Assembly (NCBI GenBank): GCA_030527185.1
Contig: JAUNBF010000032.1
Location: 1-40,270 of the forward strand
DNA from: Planctomycetia bacterium
Lineage (GTDB): Bacteria; Planctomycetota; Planctomycetia; Pirellulales; Thermoguttaceae
Direction of reading: 5' to 3'
Length of the DNA: 40,270 nt
The notes under the pieces are model-generated. The model ran no database searches. It saw nothing but the letters and a program-made list of their open reading frames with translations, and was not told the origin of the DNA. Below are positions 2,581 to 40,259 of the stretch, in pieces. The position numbers were made by a program, and so were the translations under genes. The first letter of the stretch is position 1, and each line of letters opens with the position of its first letter.

Positions 2581-3539
<959 letters not shown>

Positions 3540-29035: not shown

Positions 29036-29043
29036 AAAAATAA

Positions 29044-29188
29044 AGCGGCGCAGCCGCGGATAAAAATCTTTGGAAGGAGAGGTCTGGAGAGGATAACTCT
29101 TTCTATAGAAAGGTTTCCTCTCCACGACGGTTAAACTCTTGACGGGAAAGCTGCCCTCGCCTTGGCGCAGGCAGCGCTACGCCCGGCC
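29044..29188 (+). repeat. Structured intergenic element, copy 1
   Basis: 145 bp, nearly the same as 39054-39199: over the first 103 bp I count 4 differences. Predicted folds: GCGGC-GCA-GCCGC; TGGAGAGGA (29085-29093) with TCCTCTCCA (29116-29124) and an inner CTTTC/GAAAG helix; and GCTGCC (29150-29155) with GGCAGC (29170-29175). The last stem has changed in both copies while staying paired. Located in the 192-base gap between isomerase and FAD oxidase genes. Could be an RNA element or a mobile repeat. Confidence 0.8.
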
Positions 29189-29226
29189 AAACAATTTACA
29201 CTAACGTTAATAATGAAGGAAAAGCA

Positions 29227-39053: not shown

Positions 39054-39199
39054 AGCGGCGCAGCCGCGGACAAAAGTCTTTGGAAAGAGAGGTCTGGAGA
39101 GGATAACTCTTTCTTTAGAAAGGTTTCCTCTCCACGACGGTTAAACTCTTGACGGGCAAGCCGCTATCGCCATCGGCGCAAGCGGCGCAACGCCTGGCC
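39054..39199 (+). repeat. Structured intergenic element, copy 2
   Basis: 146 bp; counterpart of 29044-29188. Stems: GCGGC-GCA-GCCGC, TGGAGAGGA (39095-39103) with TCCTCTCCA (39126-39134), and GCCGCT (39160-39165) with AGCGGC (39181-39186). In the last stem two base pairs differ from copy 1 and both are compensated. A separate GCCGC/GCGGC hairpin (39029-39042) precedes it. Sits in the gap between transporter and isomerase genes. Confidence 0.8.
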
Positions 39200-39230: not shown

Positions 39231-40259
39231 ATGGCAAGAAAAGTAACGATGTACACAGCCCAGTGGGGCGACTTGGATTTTCACGTCCTGGCGAAAAAAA
39301 TGAGCGAGTATGGCTACGACGGCCTGGAACTGAAATGTACGGGCGACCGTCCGTGCGACCATTTCAACGTCCGAGCCGCGTTGGACGACGACGGTTATTG
39401 TGCGAAAAAACGTGCCGATTTGGAGAGTTACGGTCTGGGTTGCTGGGCGTTGAGTGCGCACAGTTACGGACAGTTGATTCTGGACGAACTTGATTTTCGT
39501 CATAAGTCGATGACTTCCCCGTACTTGTGGGGAGATGGCGACCCGGCGGGTGTTCGGCAGAGAGCCATTGAGGAGATGAAACTAACCGCCCACGCGGCGA
39601 AAAAATTCGGCGTTTCCGTGGTGAATGGTTTCACGGGATCGTCGATTTGGAAATATTTTTACTCGTTTCCGCCCGTGCCGCAGTGGGTGATTGACGACGG
39701 TTACAAACTGCTGGCGGAGTTGTGGCTGCCGATTCTGGACGTGTTTCAGGAGTGCGGCGTGAAGTTTGCTCTGGAAGTCCATCCGACGGAGATTGCATTT
39801 GACTTGTACAGTGCGTTGCAGACACTGGAAAGTCTGGAACACCATCCCGCGTTTGGGTTCAATTTCGATCCCAGTCACCTTTTCTGGCAGGGAATCGATC
39901 CGGTGGAATTCATTCGGATGTTCCCGGATCGGATTTTCCACGTCCACGTGAAAGACGCGATTCAGACACTCAATGGCCGGACGGGAATTTTGGGAAGTCA
40001 TCTGAATTTCGGCAATCGGCGACGTGGCTGGGACTTTCGCAGTCCAGGACGCGGCGATGTCAATTTTGAGGAAATCATCCGCGAGTTGAACGCGATTGAT
40101 TATCAGGGGCCGCTGTCGGTCGAGTGGGAAGATTCCGGCATGAATCGAGACCATGGTGCCAAAGAAGCGGTTCAGTTTGTGCGAAATCTGGACTTTGCGG
40201 CGAGCGACGTGGCGTTTGACGCGGCGTTCGAGCGTAAATCTGGCGGAATTGATAGTTGA
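39231..40259 (+). CDS. Sugar phosphate isomerase/epimerase-like TIM barrel
   Basis: 342 residues; AAAGGA upstream. AP-endonuclease-2-type barrel (xylose isomerase-like, as in IolE, IolI and related): starts VTMYTAQWGDLDFH, with YGYDGLELKCTGD. The metal-site residues can be placed: Glu in KFALEVHPTE, Asp/His in GFNFDPSHLFW, His in FHVHVKDAI and Glu in LSVEWEDSG. It may isomerise or dehydrate a pathway intermediate; IolE-like is one option. The TTGATAG repeat overlaps the last codons. It is the last gene seen; the operon may go on past the window edge. Confidence 0.82.
   Translation: MARKVTMYTAQWGDLDFHVLAKKMSEYGYDGLELKCTGDRPCDHFNVRAALDDDGYCAKKRADLESYGLGCWALSAHSYGQLILDELDFRHKSMTSPYLWGDGDPAGVRQRAIEEMKLTAHAAKKFGVSVVNGFTGSSIWKYFYSFPPVPQWVIDDGYKLLAELWLPILDVFQECGVKFALEVHPTEIAFDLYSALQTLESLEHHPAFGFNFDPSHLFWQGIDPVEFIRMFPDRIFHVHVKDAIQTLNGRTGILGSHLNFGNRRRGWDFRSPGRGDVNFEEIIRELNAIDYQGPLSVEWEDSGMNRDHGAKEAVQFVRNLDFAASDVAFDAAFERKSGGIDS

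Follow-up and report, generated by a model that had tools for sequence, protein, structure and literature searches.

A dispersed between-gene repeat whose 5' segment mirrors its hairpin arm, with a predicted intramolecular triple helix

Introduction

In triple-helical DNA, antiparallel G.G-C and A.A-T triplets make up the purine motif, and a T.A-T in which the third strand runs parallel to the strand of the A is an ordinary Hoogsteen triplet. Among dispersed bacterial repeats, REP/RAYT and BIME elements are extragenic palindromes that lie near gene ends, sometimes as inverted pairs, and in REP/RAYT a GTAG-type tetranucleotide stands beside the hairpin. The role of triplex DNA in bacteria is an old open question, and the work that we found on it rests mainly on one G/C-rich repeat class.

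Holder et al. 2015 (PMC4666352) distinguish four classes of intrastrand triplex and place TMECO, which is linked to variable loci, in class II. As described there, TMECO is G/C-rich and has its third strand on the 3' side, 9-nt stems and a first loop of 3-6 nt. A TMECO oligonucleotide forms an intrastrand triplex in vitro that was not shown to be stable in vivo, and PIT/TM elements are reported to have neither promoter nor terminator activity. Desulfovibrio, Planctomycetes and Clostridia are absent from the main text. Recurrent G-rich repeats of Methanomicrobiaceae, described in PMC8044849, have a G-rich strand 5' of a G/C hairpin, as does the repeat described here, and an antiparallel triplex is supported in vitro; they differ in being archaeal and in that the triplex competes with a G-quadruplex. 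PMC7515735 reports earlier work in which R.R:Y triplexes did not admit RNA strands, and disputes how general this is.

Here we analysed a stretch of 40,270 nucleotides (the window) from a Planctomycetia bacterium of the Thermoguttaceae. An earlier note on this DNA, made from the sequence alone, had pointed to a structured element present twice in it.

Results

Both copies in the window lie on the + strand, at 29044 and 39054, and are identical at 99 of 103 ungapped bases, which bears out the places, strand and identity of about 96% over 103 bp given by the earlier note. The compensatory change that it had reported in the 3' hairpin is double and exact, with GCTGCC/GGCAGC (29150-29155 / 29170-29175) in one copy and GCCGCT/AGCGGC (39160-39165 / 39181-39186) in the other. 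That the element is a repeat was also correct, but two copies are an undercount, with about 60 in the genome; likewise the 5' segment is conserved, but the note had missed that it mirrors an arm of the hairpin. The core is laid out as 5'-TCTTTGGAARGAGAGG-TCT-GGAGAGGATAACTCTTTC-loop-GAAAGGTTTCCTCTCC (Table 1). Folded singly and compared with shuffles, copy 1 gave a z of -2.87 and copy 2 a z of -4.84.

Table 1 Parts of the two copies of the repeat in the window.
Copy	Feature	Sequence	Position	Strand	Remark
1	5' palindrome	GCGGCGCAGCCGC	29045..29057	+	with A-rich flank, terminator-like hairpin on minus strand
1	third strand	TCTTTGGAAGGAGAGG	29067..29082	+	mirror of 5' arm
1	turn	TCT	29083..29085	+	
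1	hairpin 5' arm	purine tract GGAGAGGA, then TAACTCTTTC	29086..29103	+	
1	loop	TATA	29104-29107	+	
1	hairpin 3' arm	GAAAGGTTTCCTCTCC	29108..29123	+	
1	lineage-specific 3' domain	ACGGG...hairpin...CCCGG	29142..29187	+	carries compensatory changes
2	5' palindrome		39055..39067	+	with A-rich flank, terminator-like on minus strand
2	third strand	TCTTTGGAAAGAGAGG	39077..39092	+	
2	turn	TCT	39093..39095	+	
2	hairpin 5' arm		39096..39113	+	
2	loop	TTTA	39114-39117	+	
2	hairpin 3' arm		39118..39133	+	
2	3' domain with hairpin	GCCGCT...AGCGGC	39152..39198	+	

To count copies, the host's own genome (G000; 4.29 Mb, 91% complete) was searched with a core pattern allowing up to 3 mismatches. This search gave 61 matches, 34 on one strand and 27 on the other, and none with the reversed control pattern. 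We aligned 41 of the own-genome copies and found that 98.7% of 1759 cells were paired, compared with 95.1% in shuffles. Cells changed on both sides numbered 63 against 21.5 in shuffles (0 of 500 shuffles reached this), and a control with slid partners gave 0-9 such cells; further pair types showed no excess in this alignment (27 versus 26.8 shuffled). This covariation supports the earlier proposal that structure is under selection, in RNA or in single-strand DNA. Part of the turn can pair below the hairpin in many copies, so fewer than three of its bases may be free. Tail-to-tail pairs number at least four, among them C130:4901+ with 5208-, and some copies carry inserts in the loop or tail that leave the core intact.

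The 5' segment TCTTTGGAARGAGAGG repeats the hairpin 5' arm in mirror order, except that a C of the arm is replaced by G. Starting at the TCT turn and going outward, the left side gives GGAGAGRA... and the right side GGAGAGGA..., which is a mirror and neither an inverted nor a direct repeat. A third-strand G or A stands against the same purine in the arm, T against the T of a T-A pair, and G against the C of a C-G pair. As read from the sequence, this mirror with G for C is the predicted code of the third strand in an intrastrand triplex. Over the 8 positions beside the turn, the 61 own copies have canonical purine-motif triplets at 442 of 488 places: all eight in 26 copies, seven in 27, six in 7 and three in one partial copy. 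Triplet 3 is A/A in 44 copies and G/G in 17, with zero disagreement, while the loosest is position 7, where a third-strand A stands against G-C in 24 copies. The 61 copies in this count have 58 in common with the 61 core matches; C56 (contig end), C4 and C6:38605 (both without the arm pattern) were left out, and C154, C87 and C130:5188 were added. Beyond the eight triplets, in our reading, GG and TTT of the third strand would face CC and TTT of the arm, skipping two bulged T and one unmatched A.

We then scored the reversed 5' segment of each element against its own arm, using the code G-G, A-A, T-T and G-C. The input was 121 pattern matches, from which 34 were dropped as cut at the locus end or lacking a clean hairpin, and the sets used were 58 distinct elements or 65 distinct rows (source, third strand, arm) from 29 sources including one putatively viral contig. 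Own pairs scored 11.66, compared with 9.16 (sd 0.19) when arms were shuffled among the 65 rows (z 13.1; 0 of 3000 reached it). Shuffling within genomes, with 49 rows, gave 11.56 versus 10.20 (sd 0.23; z 6.0; 0 of 3000). The search pattern fixes part of the 5' segment and four arm bases, and shuffling preserves these. Among the controls, a score for Watson-Crick pairs between segment and arm fell below shuffles (z -6.4), and direct repeat (z 4.5) and parallel complement (z 3.3) rose slightly with negative mean scores. The mirror without the C-to-G rule did nearly as well (z 11.9; within genomes 5.5), so the rule rests on the G and C counts rather than on z: in 47 of 60 rows the third strand had as many G immediately ahead of the T run as the arm had C (5 of the 65 rows were dropped from this table), where 29 such rows were expected from the margins. 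The lengths of the turn-adjacent G runs in third strand and arm were correlated (Spearman 0.88), as were the purine tracts (0.78), and 808 of 914 aligned positions in the 58 elements fitted the code. A third-strand-like segment was also found beside 31 of 39 hairpins within the loci that had not been selected by the pattern (on one side in 26 and on both in 5), and the mirror fit in these hairpins was weakly above shuffles (6.77 versus 6.49; 25 of 500 reached it). We conclude with high confidence that the mirror code is real.

The spread of the repeat was examined in several collections. Covariance-model matches were found in 13 of 119 genomes of the host's family, in a scan with the stricter filters applied above 40 genomes: in 8 of 8 genomes of the own genus, 4 of a second genus and 1 of a third. 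One of the own-genus genomes (G003) had a single putative match, with an E of 5e-4. A pattern for the general design (AAAG-T5-...-GRG-TCY-GRGG), scanned over the species-genome collection, occurred in at least 118 stretches, a lower bound on the spread. Among the matches listed were Thermoguttaceae, Planctomycetia, many Clostridia, Desulfovibrionaceae, one Candidatus Hydrogenedentota record and others; those in Desulfovibrionaceae include two isolates, Solidesulfovibrio alcoholivorans DSM 5433 and, with a match cut at the contig end, S. aerotolerans DSM 16695. In 25 genomes the strict pattern occurred 0 to 31 times, at least once in 22 of them, and the reversed control 0 times in all. The own genome has no strict-pattern match, owing to the TCTTTGG of its third strand. 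Across lineages the third strand, turn and hairpin are shared while the sequences around the core differ, and the same architecture is written in other letters in Planctomycetota, Clostridia and Desulfovibrionaceae.

One locus labelled Verrucomicrobiota (L138) shares 86% identity across 917 bases with a Solidesulfovibrio contig, in a region that we take to be trpB-like from the encoded N-terminus. Because of this identity it was not counted as a separate phylum; the contig may be mis-binned or transferred. In the viral collection, one contig carried the strict pattern (IMGVR_UViG_3300028581_000641, positions 3021-3048; locus L217). A distant BLAST search of plasmids with a consensus-like query gave no match, although the low-complexity filter may hide the element.

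To place the copies relative to genes, we called genes in the own genome with a codon model trained on 11 open reading frames of the window rather than with a standard gene finder. Of the 43 copies placed, 42 lie between two called genes and one has an unknown neighbour on one side. By raw counts, 40 are in co-directional gaps (30 on the same strand as the genes and 10 on the opposite strand), 1 is between convergent and 1 between divergent genes. The element often starts no more than a few tens of bases from the upstream stop codon, and in several copies no more than ten. In other genomes, orientation was determined for 95 of the at least 118 loci, with codon models trained per group and groups chosen by size. 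Among 67 elements with both neighbours called, 23 were in same/same, 22 in convergent, 16 in opposite/opposite and 6 in opposite/same gaps; 25 further elements had one neighbour unknown, and 5 of 97 were inside a called gene. There, in contrast to the own genome, convergent gaps were over-represented (22 of 67, versus 75 of 476 background gene pairs).

Five of 7 relatives in the genus have an orthologue of the gene that follows copy 1, and in all five the upstream neighbour is the same. The earlier note had proposed a look at insertion-free homologous gaps, and the counterpart of the gap at 29036-29226 proved to be one: it is without a copy in all four relatives in which it was read, with lengths of 66 nt (G001), 224 nt (G003), 211 nt (G006) and 79 nt (G007), the two best BLAST hits of the core falling outside it in each. 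Copy 1 therefore does not belong to the ancestral operon. In a fifth relative (G002) the gap is 1245 nt and was read only in part, and none of the two best BLAST hits of the core fell in it. At this sole informative orthologous site the flanks are too diverged for alignment by eye. The own leuC-leuD gap also holds a copy; leuC was seen in none of seven relatives' loci around leuD (in L256, over 518 bases upstream). For the second gap in the window, the upstream neighbour of the gene at 39231 was seen in 0 of 11 other loci. The orthologous gap of copy 1 holds other repeats in two relatives, namely a lone GCGACGTAGTCGC palindrome in G007 (L222) and GTAGTCAGTAGTCAG-type arrays in G006 (L223).

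We compared the repeat with the described triplex-forming elements. Like the PIT elements of Hoyne and Maher and the TM elements with TMECO, it is a short intergenic multi-copy repeat with a Watson-Crick hairpin, a purine third strand and a 3-nt turn; inverted pairs occur, and copy number differs between close relatives. It differs from TMECO in that the third strand is on the 5' side (class I order), is 13-18 nt long in the 58 distinct elements, and continues over a T/A-rich upper duplex, which is why it would have to switch strands. The TMECO pattern CCCTCNCCC-N3-6-GGGNGAGGG-N3-GGGNGAGGG does not describe the repeat, whose domain order is reversed and whose sequence is different. The class I domain order (reverse-Hoogsteen purine 5', then purine, then pyrimidine 3') was found in 60 of 61 own copies, the exception being a partial copy in L013 without the 3' arm. 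Within the limits of ITxF (stem 6-15 nt, loops 1-6 nt), the 8-nt purine stem fits but the spacing between the 8-nt purine and pyrimidine arms does not, at 21-74 nt overall and 21-23 nt in 56 of 61 own copies; a search with loops of 1-6 nt, as published for triplexes, is not expected to return this repeat family. The family is, by its predicted fold, a longer class-I-order variant of the intrastrand-triplex repeats, with a strand-switching third strand. A literature search by sequence words and topic, with most subscription papers outside it, returned no description of the family, and among the papers listed intrastrand-triplex work came closest.

Discussion

The explanation that fits best, and that we regard as on balance probable from these sequence comparisons, is that the element is a repeat dispersed between genes, with a 5' segment that mirrors the hairpin arm, and is predicted to form an intramolecular triple helix, likely as single-stranded DNA. 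In the predicted fold, the 5' segment would run antiparallel to the 5' arm and parallel to the 3' arm. Its lower purine part would bind antiparallel to the arm purines by reverse Hoogsteen pairing (G.G-C, A.A-T), and its upper part (T.A-T, G.G-C) would bind parallel to the purines of the other arm. One third strand could in this way switch duplex strands without turning round. The fold is placed on single-stranded DNA because purine-motif triplexes are reported not to accept RNA strands, and a triplex on DNA is likely. It may form when replication or transcription opens the DNA and leaves the purine-rich strand single, although we are less sure of this step.

We have moderate confidence that the repeat spreads selfishly by means of an enzyme acting in trans. 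Copies near gene ends, the empty orthologous gap, the tail-to-tail pairs and the inserts that spare the core all support a mobile element, which would probably be non-autonomous, with gene regulation as a side effect. The triplex would be the likely shape recognised by such an enzyme, much as REP-type elements spread, though we hold this less firmly. A fuller proposal would have the single-stranded DNA triplex, with its strand-switching third strand, serve as the recognition shape that a selfish element has conserved while spreading through at least three phyla: the sequence would drift, the three-strand code would be kept and the enzyme would read the shape. This is tentative, and we think it rather doubtful as a whole. 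We found no transposase, target-site duplication or excision for the repeat, with one informative orthologous gap available. Several observations also weigh against a triplex: in vivo footprinting of TMECO without a stable triplex (PMC4666352); the weak fit of own over shuffled pairs in the 39 non-selected hairpins; and the ability of RNA folding alone to pair part of the third strand and turn. The orientation bias in the own genome and the convergent excess elsewhere are not needed by a purely DNA-level reading and count against it.

The earlier note had named a REP/MITE-like repeat among its candidates, and the 61 dispersed matches and the gap empty in 4 of 4 relatives read support it. In a specific form of this idea, the repeat would be a REP-like element spread by the host's own Y1 (TnpA/RAYT) transposase, which reads a hairpin in single-stranded DNA, with the third strand forming part of the recognition surface. 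It shares with REP/RAYT and BIME elements its dispersal between genes, its position near gene ends and its occasional inverted, tail-to-tail pairs, and the own genome has four Y1_Tnp matches, one with an internal stop. However, the element is absent by BLAST (E 1e-4) from all four Y1 loci, searched over 1.0-1.5 kb on each side, and the repeat, with no linked transposase there, further differs from REP/RAYT in having a third strand. We consider transfer by this enzyme possible but unlikely. The note had also suggested an element at the RNA level, in which the transcript would fold the hairpins with U.A-U triples at the top and serve in processing, in stability or as a leader in operon mRNAs. 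The prevalence of own copies in co-directional gaps between called genes, 30 of 40 of them in sense, agrees with this, as do the covarying helices and the folds, which are better than those of shuffles. Yet 10 of the 43 own copies are antisense within operons, 22 of 67 elsewhere are convergent and 16 antisense to both neighbours, and the orthologous gap lacks the copy in every relative read. The comparison with Rfam found no match (hits up to E 10 were at chance level), and the note's statement that no named family matches holds to that extent. The purine half of the third strand closely tracks the arm, and because what is conserved between the phyla is a third strand rich in purines, the DNA triplex is favoured over the RNA reading. 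A role in mRNA processing or as a leader does not fit best, and we judge an RNA-level element improbable.

A role as transcription terminator or attenuator appears more improbable again. On the minus strand, the 5' palindrome and its A-rich flank resemble a terminator in both copies in the window, and by simple T count in 34 of 41 scored own copies, in both orientations; the over-representation of convergent gaps in other genomes would also suit a terminator. The triplex hairpin itself, however, was not called a terminator on either strand in either window copy and does not present the G+C stem followed by a T run of an intrinsic terminator. The two regions gave 1 and 2 terminator-like sites, where shuffles averaged 0.5 and 0.4; only a single one of the 43 own copies is in a convergent gap, and PIT/TM elements are reported in PMC4666352 to lack such activity. 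A guide-RNA scaffold (HEARO or omega RNA of IscB, or TnpB reRNA) left without its nuclease was our first guess, since stand-alone omega RNAs are likewise dispersed, structured and flanked by unique 5' sequence, and like HEARO the repeat is structured, dispersed and about 150 nt long in the own genome. It was dropped after searches for RF02033, RRXRR and TnpB, and it now seems highly improbable. RF02033 gave no covariance-model match in the genome (control genomes also 0) or, at E 10, in 8 element loci; there were 0 RRXRR (IscB) matches in the 91% complete genome (control genomes also 0), and 0 matches to the TnpB zinc ribbon, for which 6 of 14 controls were positive.

A third strand that tracks its duplex both inside single genomes and between genomes of distant phyla is comparative evidence that a triple-stranded state is selected, or copied as such. 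The third-strand code is readable, including G opposite C-G at the strand switch, and can be tested with short oligonucleotides.

Other repeats accompany some copies. A second structured repeat (GGCGGCAAGCTGCC... or a relative) is nested within or beside the element in L238, L254 (G004:C100) and L236 (G000:C87). A motif starting CGTCAAGGNAAAT, often with a T run after it, recurs in hairpin loops (L238, L239, L240, L254, L013 and L044), and was once placed between the palindrome and the core. Some copies in Clostridia and Desulfovibrionaceae have long loop inserts with the third strand and outer arms kept (L139, L149, L169 and L202).
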